Source: Elusimicrobia bacterium CG1_02_37_114 (GTDB lineage Bacteria; Elusimicrobiota; Endomicrobiia; CG1-02-37-114). From it: a stretch of 39,578 nt of DNA. The notes beneath the pieces are model-generated. The model saw only the letters and a list, made by a program, of their open reading frames with translations, did not search any database and was not told the origin of the DNA. The stretch spans positions 1 to 39,578 of the forward strand of contig MNXB01000064.1 of NCBI GenBank assembly GCA_001871125.1, given 5' to 3'. The translations under genes were made by a program, and so were the position numbers. Shown one piece after another: positions 2,554-37,424 of this stretch. The first letter of the stretch is position 1, and every line of letters begins with the position of its first letter.

Positions 2554-2782
2554 TACAAACTTAGATTTTTTAATCCTTCTATCAGAACATCATATAAAGG
2601 GACGGAGTTGACTTGGTTGACTTGCGGAAAAAAATGGGGACGGTTCTTAATTAAACGAATTATGAATTTTAGGAGAAAATTGATGAGTGTGCCAAGCAAA
2701 GTTCTTTGTTTTCTTGAGTGGGTTAAAACAAAACTCCCATCTTGAGTTTAGACAAAGGGGAGGAAGCCAATTTTATAGTTTT

Positions 2783-3391
2783 ATGAAAGATATTTCAGGA
2801 GTGATATTAGCCGGTGGTAAGAGCAAGAGGATGGGATATCCTAAAGCTTTTTTAACCATAGGTGGTAAAAGAATTATAGACAGGATACTGGAAGTATTTA
2901 TGGTATTTTTTGACGAGATACTTATAGTTACGGATGACAGAAGCAGGTTTGCAGAATTTAAAAATATAAAAGTAGTGGAGGATTTAATCAAGGGGATAGG
3001 ACCGCTTGGTGGAATATATACGGGTTTGAAGTCAATATCAAAAAGCAGAGGTTTTTTTATGGCATGCGATATGCCGTTTCCGCATATCGGTTTAATAAAA
3101 AAACTATTAGATGTTTCAAAAAACGGCAATTTTGATTGTGTCGTTCCATATTCGGAAAAGGGGGTAGAACCTTTGTATGGAATATATGCTAAAAGTATAC
3201 TGGTTAAATTGGAAGATTCATTGCCCCGACGAGAAAGACAGACAAAAGAATTTTCTGTAAATAAATTTCTGGAATGTTGTAATTGTAAATATATTAAGCC
3301 CGAACCCGAAGAATTGTCATCGTTTTACAATGTTAACACACAGGATGACCTTAAGGAGATAGAAATAGTCCCACGCAGTTTTCTCCATTAG
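2783..3391 (+). CDS. mobA: Molybdenum cofactor guanylyltransferase MobA
   Basis: SGVILAGGKSKRMGYPKAFLTIGGKRIIDRIL...VEDLIKGIGPLGGIYTGLKS...ACDMPF; in a Moco operon. Start at ATG 2783 preferred over the upstream ORF start. Confidence 0.88.
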   Translation: MKDISGVILAGGKSKRMGYPKAFLTIGGKRIIDRILEVFMVFFDEILIVTDDRSRFAEFKNIKVVEDLIKGIGPLGGIYTGLKSISKSRGFFMACDMPFPHIGLIKKLLDVSKNGNFDCVVPYSEKGVEPLYGIYAKSILVKLEDSLPRRERQTKEFSVNKFLECCNCKYIKPEPEELSSFYNVNTQDDLKEIEIVPRSFLH

Positions 3392-3446
3392 AAGCAATGT
3401 CGAAAACTATACGCTGGGACATCCGAAAGGAGGACATTTTCGGATG
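3368..3446 (+). promoter_or_regulatory. Composite hairpin element ending in the start codon of the ModE-like gene
   Basis: Hairpin gtccca..agttttc/gaaaact..tgggac (3368-3420), then catccgaaa-ggaggacat-tttcggatg (3420-3446) with SD GGAGG in the loop and the ATG in the 3' arm. Confidence 0.75.
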
Positions 3447-3788
3447 GAAATTAAATCTAAAGTCTGGATTGAAAAAGATGGGAAGCTTATATTCGGTAAG
3501 GGTAAGTCGGATTTACTGAAAGCAATAGGGCAGGCTGGTTCTATAAGCGGCGCTTCTAAAAAGATGAATATTTCTTTCAGACATGGATGGGGATATATTA
3601 CTGCCATAGAAAAACGGTTGGGTGTTAAACTCCTGGAAAAGTCAAAAGGCGGAAAGGATAAGGGCGGTTCATCTCTCACGCCTTTAGCAAAAGACCTCAT
3701 TAAGAAATACGATAAATTAGAAAAACTGGTTGACGAATTTGTGGACAGAAAATTCAGGGAGATATTCGGCGAATGGAGACAGAAATAG
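3444..3788 (+). CDS. ModE N-terminal-like (LysR-type HTH) transcriptional regulator without a molybdate-binding domain
   Basis: KSKVWIEKDGKLIFGKGKSDLLKAIGQAGSISGASKKMNISFRHGWGYITAIEKRLGVKLLEKSKGGKDKGGSSLTPLAKDLI. Confidence 0.85.
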   Translation: MEIKSKVWIEKDGKLIFGKGKSDLLKAIGQAGSISGASKKMNISFRHGWGYITAIEKRLGVKLLEKSKGGKDKGGSSLTPLAKDLIKKYDKLEKLVDEFVDRKFREIFGEWRQK

Positions 3789-17547: not shown

Positions 17548-18372
17548 ATGGGTAATGTCATTAAAATAAATAATATAAAAATTGGAGAAGGAGAACCACT
17601 GGTGCTCATTGCAGGTCCATGCGTAATTGAATCCGAGGAATTGACACTGAATACTGCAAAGAAGATAAAAGAAATCACTGCCAGGGTTGGGATACCGTAT
17701 ATTTTTAAATCTTCATATGATAAGTCTAACCGGTCCTCAGTAGATTATTACCGTGGTCCCGGTATAAAACAAGGATTGAAAATACTTGAACGGATAAAAA
17801 AAGAAGTCGGCGTCCCGGTACTTTCTGATGTCCACTGCCAGACAGAAATTGAGGAAGCATCCAGAGTCCTTGATGTGATACAAATACCAGCATATCTATG
17901 CCAGCAGACAAGTTTAGTTGTTTGGGCAGCTAAAACAGGCAAAGTTATTAATATTAAAAAAGGACAATTCCTTGCTCCCTGGGATATGAAGAAAATCTGT
18001 AAGAAAGCCGAATCAACAGGTAATAAGAATATAATATTGACAGAAAGAGGAACATGTTTGGGATACAATAACCTTGTATGTGATATGAGGTCAATACCTC
18101 TAATGCAAAAAATAGGTTATCCTGTTATTGTAGATATTACACATATTTTACGCATGCCAGGGCCTCCTTCAACTGAATCTTCAGGTGGTCAGCCCGAATT
18201 TATAGCGGTTCTGGCACGGGCAGCAGTTGCCTGCGGGTGTGATGGGTTGTTTCTGGAAGTTCATCCAGAGCCACAAAAAGCATTGTGTGATGCATCAAGT
18301 ATGCTCAATCTTGAAGAATTAGAAGAATTACTGATTTCTGTAAAAAAGATAAGCGAGATTGTCCGGAAATAA
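17548..18372 (+). CDS. kdsA: 3-deoxy-8-phosphooctulonate synthase
   Basis: LVLIAGPCVIESEELTLNTAKKIKEI...YIFKSSYDKSNRSS...GPGIKQGLKIL...LTERGTCLGYNNLVCDMRS. Confidence 0.96.
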   Translation: MGNVIKINNIKIGEGEPLVLIAGPCVIESEELTLNTAKKIKEITARVGIPYIFKSSYDKSNRSSVDYYRGPGIKQGLKILERIKKEVGVPVLSDVHCQTEIEEASRVLDVIQIPAYLCQQTSLVVWAAKTGKVINIKKGQFLAPWDMKKICKKAESTGNKNIILTERGTCLGYNNLVCDMRSIPLMQKIGYPVIVDITHILRMPGPPSTESSGGQPEFIAVLARAAVACGCDGLFLEVHPEPQKALCDASSMLNLEELEELLISVKKISEIVRK

Positions 18373-18416
18373 ACTATAATGTCCCGCCTGACGACGGGCA
18401 GGCAAGACCTGACCCC
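18371..18416. repeat. 46-bp dispersed repeat, copy 1
   Basis: aaactataatgtcccgcctgacgacgggcaggcaagacctgacccc; 44/46 identical to 33106-33151. Confidence 0.95.
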
Positions 18417-24365: not shown

Positions 24366-24394
24366 TGCCGCACTCAAAGTAGAGGCATTTTCGG

Positions 24395-26494
24395 ATGAAA
24401 AAACTGTATTTTTTATTTGGTGTTCATAATCATCAGCCAGTCGGTAATTTTCCGCATGTATTTGACAGAGCATATAAACTTGCCTATAGCCCGTTTATAA
24501 AGCTAATGCAGGCACATCCAGGGGTTAAATGGACACTGCACTGCAGCGGAATACTGTGGGATTATTTTGAAGAAAAGCGTCCGGAATACCTAAATATTGT
24601 CAGGAAACTTATTGGTTCCGGTCAGGTTGAACTACTTACAGGCGGTTATTATGAACCTATACTTTCTATTTTACCCGATAGAGATAAATTAGGACAGGTA
24701 AACAAACTTACAGAATTTATCAGGGAAAAATTCAACTTCCAGCCCAGGGGCGCCTGGCTTGCTGAACGTATATGGGAAGGTTCGTTAGCAAAAATTCTTA
24801 AACAATCAAATCTTGAATATACAATACTTGATGACCATCATTTCATTTCAAATGGACTCTCTAAGAAAGATTTAAATGGATATTACATAACCGAAGAGCA
24901 GGGACATGCTCTAAAAATTTTTTCTATAAGCGAGACGTTGAGATACAGTATACCCTGGCGTCCTGTCCAGGATACAATTGAATATTTTAAAACTATGGCA
25001 GCAGAGTCGGATAAATTAGATAATCCTACGGATAATCCATGTGTCGTTATGATAGATGATGGTGAAAAATTCGGACTCTGGCCAGGAACAAATAGACTTG
25101 TCTATACCAGCAGATGGTTAGATAAATTCCTTACCGCAATTGAACAAAATTCAGACTGGCTAAAAACTCTTACATTTAGTGAATTTGTTAAGACTTTTCC
25201 TGCCAGGGGGAGAGTATATTTAGCTCCGGCGAGCTATTTTGAAATGACACAGTGGTCCTTACCTCACAAAGCGCAGTCAGAACTGGAAGATGTTCTTGAA
25301 GAGTTAGAGCATTTACCCGGGGGTGAGAGAATAAAAAAGTTTATTCATGGGGGGATATGGCAGAATTTTCTGGTGAAATATCCCGATGCAAACAATATGC
25401 ACAAAAAAATGCTGTATGTAAGCAATAAAATAGATAATTTTAAAGACACTACCCACCATACTAAAGCACTTGATTCTCTCTACGCAGGTCAGTGTAACTG
25501 TGCCTACTGGCATGGTGTATTCGGCGGTCTTTATCTGCCGCATTTACGCCTGGCAATTTATAAGAAACTTATACGGGCTGAAACCTTATTGAATAAGGAG
25601 CAGAAGTCTGATATAGAATTAAGGAATATTGATTTTGATTGTGATGGGAAACAGGAAATAATTTTGGAGACAAATGCCCAGAATTTATATATCAGACCCC
25701 ATAGCGGCGGTACAATATTTGAGTGGGATATAAAAGGATGCGGGGTCAATTTGCTGGGAGTGATTACCAGATATAAAGAAACCTATCACGATAAATTAGC
25801 AGAGATAGTAGAACTAAAGAAGAAAAAATTAGCTTCCGGTATAAGCGCTGCTTTGCTGGGATTATATAAAAGTAAAGGCAAGAAACTTATTAAATATGTA
25901 CATCATGATTTCTATAACAGAGTTTCTTTGATTGACCATTTCTTTCACAAAAGCACAAAGCTTGAGGATTTTTACAGGTGTCAGTACATTGAACAGGGAG
26001 ACTTTATCCAGGGAGAATATGATTATGACATTATTGACGAGAGAAAAGAAAACGGTGCAATGTCAGTAAGACTTGCAAAGAAAGGCCATGTTTTAATAGA
26101 GGGGACATCTTTTGCACTTGAGGTAAGAAAAACCGTAACTTTCAGTAGAAAATCAGAGGTGGTTGTGAATTATGAAATAATTAATCATTCTGATTTACCG
26201 ATTGCTTTGTGGCATGGTGTTGAGTTTAACCTTGTAGCAGGCTCAAAATCTGTTGAAAAGGAAGAAATGCTGAATAAAAAAACTTTTGAAAAGATTTACA
26301 GGGATGAAAATTTTAAGATAAAATTTGATTTTTCCCTGCCTAAAAATATCTGGATATTTCCGGTAGAAACCGTTTCTCTATCGGATAGAGGTTTTGAACG
26401 CACCTGTCAGGGAGCGTGCGTGCTATTCCATGAAAATTTCAAAATTCAACCGCATAAATCCCATTTCTGGGATATGAGTTTTGGGGTTTGCTGA
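24395..26494 (+). CDS. GH57 alpha-amylase / 4-alpha-glucanotransferase
   Basis: LYFLFGVHNHQPVGNFPHVFDRAY...GVKWTLHCSGILWDYF...LLTGGYYEPILSILPDRDK...GAWLAERIWEGSLAKIL; C-terminal DUF1925/1926-like region. Confidence 0.92.
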   Translation: MKKLYFLFGVHNHQPVGNFPHVFDRAYKLAYSPFIKLMQAHPGVKWTLHCSGILWDYFEEKRPEYLNIVRKLIGSGQVELLTGGYYEPILSILPDRDKLGQVNKLTEFIREKFNFQPRGAWLAERIWEGSLAKILKQSNLEYTILDDHHFISNGLSKKDLNGYYITEEQGHALKIFSISETLRYSIPWRPVQDTIEYFKTMAAESDKLDNPTDNPCVVMIDDGEKFGLWPGTNRLVYTSRWLDKFLTAIEQNSDWLKTLTFSEFVKTFPARGRVYLAPASYFEMTQWSLPHKAQSELEDVLEELEHLPGGERIKKFIHGGIWQNFLVKYPDANNMHKKMLYVSNKIDNFKDTTHHTKALDSLYAGQCNCAYWHGVFGGLYLPHLRLAIYKKLIRAETLLNKEQKSDIELRNIDFDCDGKQEIILETNAQNLYIRPHSGGTIFEWDIKGCGVNLLGVITRYKETYHDKLAEIVELKKKKLASGISAALLGLYKSKGKKLIKYVHHDFYNRVSLIDHFFHKSTKLEDFYRCQYIEQGDFIQGEYDYDIIDERKENGAMSVRLAKKGHVLIEGTSFALEVRKTVTFSRKSEVVVNYEIINHSDLPIALWHGVEFNLVAGSKSVEKEEMLNKKTFEKIYRDENFKIKFDFSLPKNIWIFPVETVSLSDRGFERTCQGACVLFHENFKIQPHKSHFWDMSFGVC

Positions 26495-26539
26495 TGAAAC
26501 TTACATGCCCCTGCGGGGCATCAATTAACATTAAAATTA

Positions 26540-26603
26540 GTCCCCCCTTGATTTCTTCGAAATCAATACAGGGGGGACATCCGAAAGAGAGGATTTTCGG
26601 ATG
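26540..26603 (+). promoter_or_regulatory. Composite hairpin element ending in the HPr start codon
   Basis: gtccccccttgattt-cttcg-aaatcaa-taca-ggggggac, then catccgaaa-gagaggat-tttcggatg with SD in the loop and ATG in the 3' arm. Confidence 0.8.
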
Positions 26604-26864
26604 GAAGAAAGAATTTTACAAATAAAGAACAGATTGGGATTACATGCACGTCCTGCAGCACTTTTCGTTCAGACATCAACAAAGTTCAAATCCAGGATAA
26701 GGGTATTCAAAAATGACCAGGAAGTTGATGGTAAGAGTATTATGGGACTTATGACTCTTGCGGCAGAATGCGATTCATCCATATATATTATTATTGAGGG
26801 AGAAGATGAAAAAAAAGCAATGGAGGAACTCAGTAAACTTGTCCAAAACGGATTTAACGAATAG
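26601..26864 (+). CDS. ptsH: Phosphocarrier protein HPr
   Basis: NRLGLHARPAALFVQTSTKFKS...VDGKSIMGLMTLAA. Confidence 0.95.
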   Translation: MEERILQIKNRLGLHARPAALFVQTSTKFKSRIRVFKNDQEVDGKSIMGLMTLAAECDSSIYIIIEGEDEKKAMEELSKLVQNGFNE

Positions 26865-31887: not shown

Positions 31888-31950
31888 AATCCCCCTTGTT
31901 CCCCCTTTTATTCCTACGGAACCTACTTCGGTAAAGGGGGATATTGGGGG
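31888..31950. repeat. Long nested inverted repeat between nfeD and SPFH genes
   Basis: aatcccccttgttccccctttattcctacggaacctacttcggtaaagggggatattgggggatt. Confidence 0.85.
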
Positions 31951-31968
31951 ATTAAAAAGGAGACAGCA

Positions 31969-33073: not shown

Positions 33074-33114
33074 AAAAAATAATTTGGACTGAAGATGGGA
33101 TATATAAACTATAA
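33058..33114 (+). pseudogene. Truncated ParE/RelE-like toxin start
   Basis: LDKKVEKIIWTEDGIYKL* overlaps the antitoxin 3' end and breaks off at the dispersed repeat. Confidence 0.5.
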
Positions 33115-33826
33115 AGTCCCGCCTGACGACGGGCAGGCAAGACTTGACCCCCAAAGAACATCAATAATTGTACCGGTATATAACGAAGAAAAGACAGTTG
33201 TTGATGTCATAGAACATCTCAAGAAGTTACCTTTCAACAAGGAAATCATAATTATTGACGATGGTTCAACTGACGGGACAAGAGAGATATTGTCAAACAT
33301 TAAAGATTTGGCTGTTAAGATTGTCTTTCATGAAACCAATAAGGGAAAAGGGTCAGCAATAGCTACGGGGCTTAAGAATGCGGAAGGTGAGATAATTGCA
33401 ATACAGGATGCTGATTTGGAATATGACCCCAATCAGCTGGTGGAGTTAATTAAGCCGATACAGGATAATAAGGCGGATGTGGTTTATGGTTCAAGGTTCT
33501 TGAAGGAAAATCCGAATATTTATAAGAGGTATCTGCTGGGCAACAAGTTCATTACCTGGCTTATAAATATCTTTTATGAAGCACATTTTACCGACTCTTA
33601 TACATGTTATAAGATTTTCCGGAAAGAAATAATAGAAAAATTTAATCTGGAGTCAAAAAGATTTGAAGTTGAAGCAGAAATAAGTATAAAAGTTGCAAAA
33701 GAGAAAATCACTTTTTTGGAAATTCCGATAGATTATAATCCAAGATCTTTAGAACAGGGTAAAAAAATAAGTTTTAAAGATGCAATAAAAGGTGTACTGA
33801 CGATACTGAAATACAAATTCAAATAA
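33095..33826 (+). CDS. Glycosyltransferase family 2 (dolichol-phosphate mannosyltransferase-like)
   Basis: TSIIVPVYNEEKTVVDVIEHLKKLPFNKEIIIIDDGSTDGTREIL...DADLEYDPNQLVELIKPI; N-terminus is repeat-derived. Confidence 0.9.
   Translation: MGYINYKVPPDDGQARLDPQRTSIIVPVYNEEKTVVDVIEHLKKLPFNKEIIIIDDGSTDGTREILSNIKDLAVKIVFHETNKGKGSAIATGLKNAEGEIIAIQDADLEYDPNQLVELIKPIQDNKADVVYGSRFLKENPNIYKRYLLGNKFITWLINIFYEAHFTDSYTCYKIFRKEIIEKFNLESKRFEVEAEISIKVAKEKITFLEIPIDYNPRSLEQGKKISFKDAIKGVLTILKYKFK
33106..33151. repeat. 46-bp dispersed repeat, copy 2
   Basis: aaactataaagtcccgcctgacgacgggcaggcaagacttgacccc. Confidence 0.95.
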
Positions 33827-35944: not shown

Positions 35945-36403
35945 TTAAATTTTTTTCTCAAGGATAAACATTTTTAAATTAGGTAAATCAATTATATCTT
36001 TCTCTTTAAAGCCATTCTTCAGGCAGACTTTCAGAGCTGTCTGCATCATATCTGTTCCGCGGAATATAACTTTATTATAACTGTGTTTTTTACAAAAATC
36101 AAGTGCTTTGTTTATAAGTTCACTGCCATATCCTTTTTGTCGGAATTCTTTCTTAACGAATAATCTTCGTAAAAGAGCCGTGGAGCGAGTATCTTCTTTT
36201 ATTCCGACAGTCCCTATAATCTGACTGTCTATTTCAGCAACAAGAAAAATGTCATTCTTTCCGCCATAATATTCCGCAGGATTATCAATGTCTTCTACCG
36301 GATAAACTTTACTACTCTCCGGAAGTTCTTTATCCATTATACCGGCGATGAGTTCCTTGACCTGATAACCGTCTTCTGAATTTGCCTGCCTGATTTTAAT
36401 CAT
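35945..36403 (-). CDS. GNAT N-acetyltransferase
   Basis: MIKIRQANSEDGYQVKELIAG...IIGTVGIKEDTRSTALLRRLFVKKEFRQKGYGSELINKALDFCKK. Confidence 0.88.
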   Translation of the reverse strand: MIKIRQANSEDGYQVKELIAGIMDKELPESSKVYPVEDIDNPAEYYGGKNDIFLVAEIDSQIIGTVGIKEDTRSTALLRRLFVKKEFRQKGYGSELINKALDFCKKHSYNKVIFRGTDMMQTALKVCLKNGFKEKDIIDLPNLKMFILEKKI

Positions 36404-37361
36404 CCTGGCCCCCTGAACTTTTAATTTTTTCAATAATATTTTTGAAATTGAATTCAAAACGTTCTCTGACGAGAAAAATAAAAATTATGCCTATGAATAA
36501 ATAGTTTATACAAAATATTAACAGTTGTGCACTGAGAACGCTTGCCTCCGGAAGCCCTATCTGATGATAGAGAAAAACCGCGGAGGCTTCCCTTATACCA
36601 AGACCCGCAACACTTATTGGAATGAAGGCAATTATTGTTACCATACAGTTAATAAAAAGGATTTTCCAGAAGGGGCAACTTATGCCAAACGCAAAAAATG
36701 CCATAAGTATACCGAGGGCTATTACTCCCCAACTTACGAGTATGACAAAAAGACTTAATAAAAGATTTACTTTATATTCTTTGAAATAGGCGCTGATAGT
36801 ATTGGAAAATCCCGTAAATATTTTTGCATAATTGCCCAGCAATTTCTTAAACAGATTTATACCTTTTGGAGTGAACAACAGGAAGCAGACCGATATACAA
36901 CCAAACAGGAACAATGTGCTTAACCTCAAAGTATCCTTCTTACTGAAGAAAAGGGAAAAACTACTAAGAGCGAGAGTTCCGCACAGGAGAAGGTTTCCTA
37001 TCTTATTTAACAATATGACCGCTGTTCCCGTCCCAATACTGATATTTTCCTTCTTCAAAAAATAAACAAGGGAAAACTGACCTGTGTTGGCAGGAAAAAA
37101 TATACCTACCGCCACTGAATAGAGCAGGTATTTCATTAACCGGAAAAATGGCATATTTGGAGCATAAGGGTCAAGTAGTATTTTAAAACTTAATGCATTG
37201 AGAAACATAACTGAAACCAATACTGCCATAGATAAAAAAACATATAATATTTTCGTAGTAGTGAATGTCAGATAAAACCTGTCCGGTCCCACACGGTAAA
37301 TCAGGAATGTAAAAAGCCCCAGACCGATTAGTAATCTCAAATAATTTGACAATTTTTTCAC
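36396..37361 (-). CDS. Lysylphosphatidylglycerol synthase TM / flippase-like membrane protein; proposed GTG start at 37361
   Basis: VKKLSNYLRLLIGLGLFTFLIYRVGPDRFY...FFPANTGQFSLVYFLKKENISIGTGTAVILLNKIGNLL...ISVAGLGIREASAVFLYHQIGL. The 23 aa upstream in the ORF are encoded by the hairpin element. Confidence 0.85.
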   Translation of the reverse strand: MKKLSNYLRLLIGLGLFTFLIYRVGPDRFYLTFTTTKILYVFLSMAVLVSVMFLNALSFKILLDPYAPNMPFFRLMKYLLYSVAVGIFFPANTGQFSLVYFLKKENISIGTGTAVILLNKIGNLLLCGTLALSSFSLFFSKKDTLRLSTLFLFGCISVCFLLFTPKGINLFKKLLGNYAKIFTGFSNTISAYFKEYKVNLLLSLFVILVSWGVIALGILMAFFAFGISCPFWKILFINCMVTIIAFIPISVAGLGIREASAVFLYHQIGLPEASVLSAQLLIFCINYLFIGIIFIFLVRERFEFNFKNIIEKIKSSGGQDD

Positions 37362-37424
37362 TTGAAAATCCTCCCATTCAAGTGTCCCCCCTGCCAGTTT
37401 TACGTTAGTAAAACTAGGGGGGAT
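37359..37424 (-). promoter_or_regulatory. Composite hairpin element ending in the flippase-like gene start codon (variant stem)
   Basis: Minus strand: atcccccct-agttttac-taac-gtaaaact-ggc-agggggga, then cacttgaa-tgggaggatt-ttcaagtg with SD in the loop and GTG in the 3' arm. Confidence 0.75.

Follow-up and report, generated by a model that had tools for sequence, protein, structure and literature searches.

The window analysed here, a stretch of 39,578 nucleotides, was found to be contig 28 of a 2.09 Mb draft genome (G000) belonging to the same order as Elusimicrobia bacterium RIFOXYA2_FULL_39_19 (G001). At the start region of ptsH, which encodes HPr, two abutting hairpins can be read in the sequence at 26540–26603, running directly into the gene (Table 1). 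Both the sequence and the layout, in which the loop of the second hairpin holds a Shine-Dalgarno (SD) motif and its 3′ foot the ATG, are as described in the initial annotation. The predicted minimum free energy (MFE) of the element is −33.4 kcal/mol compared with a mean of −17.4 kcal/mol for shuffled sequences (z = −4.9). The stem of hairpin 2 had been described as a perfect 9-bp helix; its arms are indeed complementary, but C26578 is claimed by both hairpins, as it can pair with G26540 (hairpin 1) or with G26603 (hairpin 2) and never with both. Hairpin 1 takes this base in the MFE structure, which leaves hairpin 2 with 8 bp and the G of the ATG approximately half unpaired. A frame of 43 codons (26494–26625), opened by an ATG that shares bases with the GH57 stop codon (TGATG), traverses the element out of frame with ptsH.

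Table 1. Double hairpins in the window and the genes which they precede
Feature	Position	Strand	Description
Hairpin 1, second copy	3368..3419	+	Stop codon of upstream MobA-like ORF lies within it
Hairpin 2, second copy	3420..3446	+	CATCCGAAA / GGAGGACAT / TTTCGGATG; stem as in ptsH copy, ATG
LysR-type HTH (ModE-like) gene upstream of moeA	3444..3788	+	Pfam HTH_1; started by second copy
Hairpin 1, ptsH copy	26540..26578	+	Stem GTCCCCCC/GGGGGGAC, inner stem TTGATTT/AAATCAA, 4-nt 3′ bulge TACA; covariation
Hairpin 2, ptsH copy	26578..26603	+	CATCCGAAA / loop GAGAGGAT (Shine-Dalgarno) / TTTCGGATG; covariation
ptsH (HPr)	26601..26864	+	Pfam PTS-HPr; 3′ foot of hairpin 2 forms the start codon
LPG_synthase_TM membrane protein gene	36396..37361	−	GTG start from third copy
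Hairpin 2, third copy	37359..37384	−	CACTTGAA / TGGGAGGATT / TTCAAGTG; GTG start
Hairpin 1, third copy	37384..37424	−	2 nt past stop codon of upstream gene

Related structures had been noted at the starts of at least two other unrelated genes (3368–3446 and 37359–37424), and both proved to be real; the one at 37359–37424 is on the minus strand, differs in its stem and starts with GTG. An upstream MobA-like ORF (2687–3391) extends 24 nt into hairpin 1 of the second copy, where its stop codon lies. The distribution of the element was surveyed by covariance-model and pattern searches of the genome, together with sampled stretches of ~425 kb from the same genome and 391 kb from G001 and G003, another genome of the G001 family. 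A covariance model built from five copies identified eight strong copies in G000 and four in two genomes of another family within the same order. When a model of all 12 copies was run over 97 genomes of the class, the identical 12 were recovered, with weaker matches in one genome (G035) being read as hairpin-1-like repeats. A model of hairpin 2 alone returned the same 12 strict copies followed by an E-value gap from 1e-4 to 0.015, and none of the strict copies in this census occupied a non-start intergenic site. Eight of the strict copies belong to G000, three to G001 and one to G003, at unrelated loci, which bears out the earlier description of a dispersed element; having several similar copies at unrelated loci, it is a dispersed palindromic repeat in the broad sense in which REP, MITE and RPE sequences are so defined.

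AT-rich leaders fold into hairpins easily, which could favor a chance origin for the three structures in the window. The window contains three perfect hairpins (8 bp or longer) that have an SD-like loop and end on a start triplet, whereas 60 dinucleotide shuffles gave 0.05 on average. This difference, the covariance-model E-values (to 1e-18) and the copies in other genomes rule out chance, the probability of which we consider to be practically nil. Pattern scans of 85,488 species yielded, beyond two RIFOXYA2_FULL_39_19 loci, only matches from which hairpin 1 was missing and, in almost every case, a long ORF as well; presence in other phyla was rejected on this basis. A viral origin was likewise rejected, as five matches in viral contigs were all imperfectly paired with just seven codons open from the putative start. 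On the evidence of these models and scans, the strict family is rare and, as far as seen, confined to one order. No Rfam family matches the element above its gathering threshold, the sole Rfam match in the window being a tRNA, in keeping with the earlier statement that no described family was known. As the genomes compared include no close sequenced relative of the family to which G000 belongs, empty sites are not visible at strain level.

Eleven of the 12 strict copies terminate exactly on a start codon, in the sense orientation of the gene. Those in G000 begin ptsH, the LysR-type HTH gene, the LPG_synthase_TM gene, wecB (UDP-GlcNAc 2-epimerase), the gene for HU, nuoD and one unnamed gene, while those in G001 and G003 begin aspS, mtaB, a pitrilysin-like peptidase gene and a short ORF (nuoD, aspS, mtaB and pitrilysin were named from sequence). 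Where the family is recognizable, the N-termini of these genes appear native, and same-strand upstream genes often end within ~45 nt of the element or overlap it. Such exact placement is unlike that expected of a random mobile element. The twelfth copy lies in frame within a GltD-like protein (the gltA copy) with no start codon there; it is situated in a hypervariable linker, the measured stretch of which ranges from 37 to 53 residues among relatives, and is flush with the conserved KVAVVGSG motif. Three of the G001 and G003 copies (G001 C62:17673–17761, G001 C83 and G003 C48) are traversed by an open frame that terminates in FR*, its TGA overlapping the GTG start (GTGA), a geometry of translational coupling. 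At the mtaB element, the crossing frame appears to extend an upstream RsmE-like gene.

Comparison with orthologous genes gives some indication of how the element arrives and decays. Ten ptsH relatives with a readable N-terminus were found to use an ATG start with other leaders and no double hairpin. Orthologue N-termini were sought by a simple motif, by which most HU and many aspS genes were missed, so that those two comparisons are thin; among the HPr, aspS and mtaB orthologue leaders that were readable, no intact copy was found outside the genome listed for each gene. At the pitrilysin-like gene, the G001 arrangement without the element reads stop-AACT-ATGAAAACAAAACTACTGAGAGG, whereas that in G003 reads stop-ATGAA-ATGAAAACTACTTATTC-element (...TTTCAG)-GTGAAAATAAAATACTTGAGAGG, with the native-like ATGAAAACTACTT preceding the element. 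This looks like an insertion which left a native-like start upstream, a new GTG restoring the N-terminus. The apparent re-creation of this start, together with the ending of 11 of 12 copies on start codons, supports portable initiation and the proposal of the initial annotation that the element supplies an initiation region. In genome G004, the aspS leader retains only GAAATATAGGAGTTTCAGGTG, without hairpin 1, and what remains in the mtaB leader is TCTATTCCGGGGACAC, from the 3′ end of hairpin 1, together with GTG as the start. Both look like decayed copies keeping mainly the SD and GTG, although the reading could run in reverse, with these, notably aspS, as pre-insertion sites. Matched 5′ and 3′ flanks did not resemble each other significantly more than mismatched pairs did (permutation p = 0.10), the likeness being suggestive only at pitrilysin and nuoD, and a target-site duplication is therefore not established.

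Both stems covary among the copies. In the 12-sequence alignment, which was fitted to the structure of the model and is hence biased towards it, two-sided changes occur in 13 of 23 pairs, and 94.4% of cells are paired compared with 82.2% when shuffled and at most 62% when slid. The stem of hairpin 2 was still supported in a MAFFT alignment of that hairpin alone with two weaker relatives added. Across the strict copies, hairpin 2 has no one-sided changes and no G-U pairs, its stem variants (CATCCGAAA, CACTTGAA(A), CATTTGAAA, CGTCCGAAA and CACCTGAAA) each occurring with their complement, and the A or G with which the start codon begins is always matched by its partner (T or C). The covariation expected of a cis-regulatory RNA is present, with few independent changes behind it, as there are only 12 copies and 3′ arms are common within lineages. 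The loops of hairpin 2 are variable, purine-rich and mostly SD-like; a CsrA-type site, considered because of the GGA in several of them, was rejected since several copies have no GGA. The fold had been said to hide the start codon and present the SD. The SD loop is indeed predicted to be mostly open and the start substantially occluded in most copies, although with hairpin 2 energies of approximately −6.5 to −13 kcal/mol the predicted occlusion is moderate. Some lowering of initiation is likely on these predictions, but the translational control for which the design had been called suited, by sequestration of the start codon, is an inference.

Several further repeats were observed, and the double hairpin may belong, as one of its branches, to a more extensive population of repeats. 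Hairpin repeats of the form AATCCCCC...GGGGGATT lie directly before gene starts at 31888–31953 of the window and elsewhere in G000 (C93, C23, C59, C118 and C14:16700); several are followed by AAAAGGATTTT(C)RRRTG leaders (ribF-like, nadD-like with GTG, and nuoC-like genes), making up a second start-adjacent type. Near-identical double hairpins, in which a hairpin-1-like repeat is joined to CGATTTGC/GCAAATCG, precede tRNA-Ser-like sequences at G000 C12:30135–30203 and C130:35769–35837, ending at about the first tRNA base. Starts of the form GAGGCATTTTCGGATG without an intact double hairpin occur at 24388–24397 of the window (the GH57 gene) and at G000 C121:34183 (with a decayed GGGGAC hairpin), and are possible relics. 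Small palindromes were also seen within the loops of other hairpins (L003 1427–1530; window 31888–31953; G000 C14, C23 and C121), among them a recurrent TTCCTACGGAACCTACTTCGG and, in the wecB copy, another hairpin of the GTCCCC type. Five nested palindromes of nearly identical sequence, GGACGCTAC[CCCACGATGTTTTACC...CACGGGG]GCAGGC(A/T)GTAGCGTCC, are found at G000 C29, C97, C98, C107 and C116. Another dispersed GTCCC-type repeat, of 48 nt and 96% identity, contains GTCCCGCCTGACGACGGGCAGGCAAGACCTGACCCC and occupies 18369–18416 and 33104–33151 of the window.

The best explanation, to which we assign a probability of roughly 0.6, is a lineage-specific dispersed palindromic element of REP/MITE/RPE-like character, consisting of two abutting hairpins with its own SD and start codon. 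Such an element would come to lie at the 5′ end of a gene, usually within an operon and near the upstream stop, where it would displace the native leader and restart the gene at its native first codon, using the SD in the loop of hairpin 2 and the start at its 3′ foot. It presumably moves, or has moved, as a DNA element. Ribosomes would initiate at the start codon of hairpin 2, which would lower initiation only moderately, and old copies would decay while their SD and start codon were retained.

A true cis-regulatory RNA, in the sense of a translational operator or switch with the SD in the loop and the start in the stem, kept only where it regulates and opened or closed by protein, RNA, temperature or ribosome traffic, seems to us rather unlikely. 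It would account for the occlusion predicted in most copies with a mostly open SD loop, for covariation that extends to the first base of the start codon, and for the exact registration on starts with no strict intergenic copies elsewhere; the G004 mtaB leader may also have a different hairpin over its GTG (ACTTAA/TTAAGT around AGGG, read by eye). Against this, the genes are neither orthologous nor functionally related, no gene was seen with an intact copy in both lineages, an RNA helix undergoing drift would not usually be free of G-U pairs and one-sided changes, as hairpin 2 is, and the stem of the gltA copy (CGTCCGAAA/TTTCGGACG) is perfect although no start codon is present there. That no gene was seen with intact copies in the two lineages and that pairing in gltA is perfect speak for a repeat of the mobile type no less than for a regulator, and the gltA pairing suggests that the palindrome also matters at the DNA level. 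Both ideas would be combined in a portable translation switch of natural origin, in which a mobile double hairpin targets starts, replaces the initiation region and imposes sequestration control, with ATG/CAT and GTG/CAC pairing being selected; this is an unlikely reading.

Alternatively, insertion could be guided by base pairing: the element would comprise hairpin 1 and the 5′ arm only, and its site would be selected through complementarity of that arm to a pre-existing native leader TTTCRRRTG. This accounts for perfect pairing both at start codons and in gltA, and it is consistent with GGAGTTTCAGGTG at G004 aspS, where hairpin 1 and an intact 5′ arm are absent, and with native-looking starts such as that at 24395 of the window, which has GGCATTTTCGGATG without an element. 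However, both TTTCAGGTG starts found in 300 kb sampled from G001 carry the element, all four copies of the G001/G003 family have a single stem in common, and the 3′ end of hairpin 1 kept at G004 mtaB makes decay the simpler reading, so that guided insertion appears quite improbable. It is very improbable that hairpin 2 was formed beside an inserted hairpin 1 as a templated palindrome, through quasi-palindrome correction or template switching that copied the native leader into an inverted arm. Its perfect Watson-Crick arms would be expected, and away from starts, before two tRNA-Ser-like genes and elsewhere, other hairpin-1-like repeats do precede inverted repeats of different sequence; yet the same few stem sequences recur at unrelated genes, with four of four identical in G001 and G003, which leaders copied independently would not produce.

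Dispersed palindromes are usually regarded either as lying outside genes or as in-frame insertions that proteins tolerate. A dispersed palindromic element which brings its own ribosome-binding site and start codon would represent a third route to harmlessness, at the gene boundary, and would cause start codons to turn over (ATG to GTG) in core genes, aspS and that for HU being examples. It also raises the question of how an element comes to stop precisely at start codons.

Among known repeats, Rickettsia palindromic elements (RPE) and bacterial MITEs are likewise short palindromes scattered among unrelated genes, in some cases in frame within coding sequence (PMC10969869). The element resembles RPE in that the gltA copy is in frame within coding sequence and an open frame crosses three of the G001/G003 copies. 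However, RPE encode a peptide inside ORFs, whereas this element sits at gene starts and supplies an SD and start codon; the open frame is similar, and an encoded peptide conserved, in the G001/G003 copies only, those in G000 using different frames. MITEs are distinguished by terminal inverted repeats and target-site duplication, neither of which is established here. In common with REP/BIME sequences and their RAYT transposases, the hairpins are GC-rich and dispersed, and G000 has eight Y1_Tnp matches. No transposase could be tied to the element, as the strong hairpins flanking the six RAYT-like (Y1) loci examined of these eight, on incomplete contigs, were of other kinds. REPs are classically extragenic, and to our knowledge they do not carry a start codon.

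The translational operator of the RNA-phage replicase (MS2/R17 type) is a hairpin around the initiation codon which lowers translation when bound (PMC3561173). The likeness to the element is one of layout only, the operator being a single phage site bound by coat protein, whereas the element is dispersed, is abutted by a second GC-rich hairpin and has no known ligand. The double hairpin would also show, in nature, the arrangement on which synthetic start-codon switches are built. In the engineered toehold switch, the SD is placed in a loop and the start codon within a hairpin, preceded by a 5′ single-stranded toehold; the SD-in-loop layout is common to both, but the 5′ side of the element is closed by hairpin 1.
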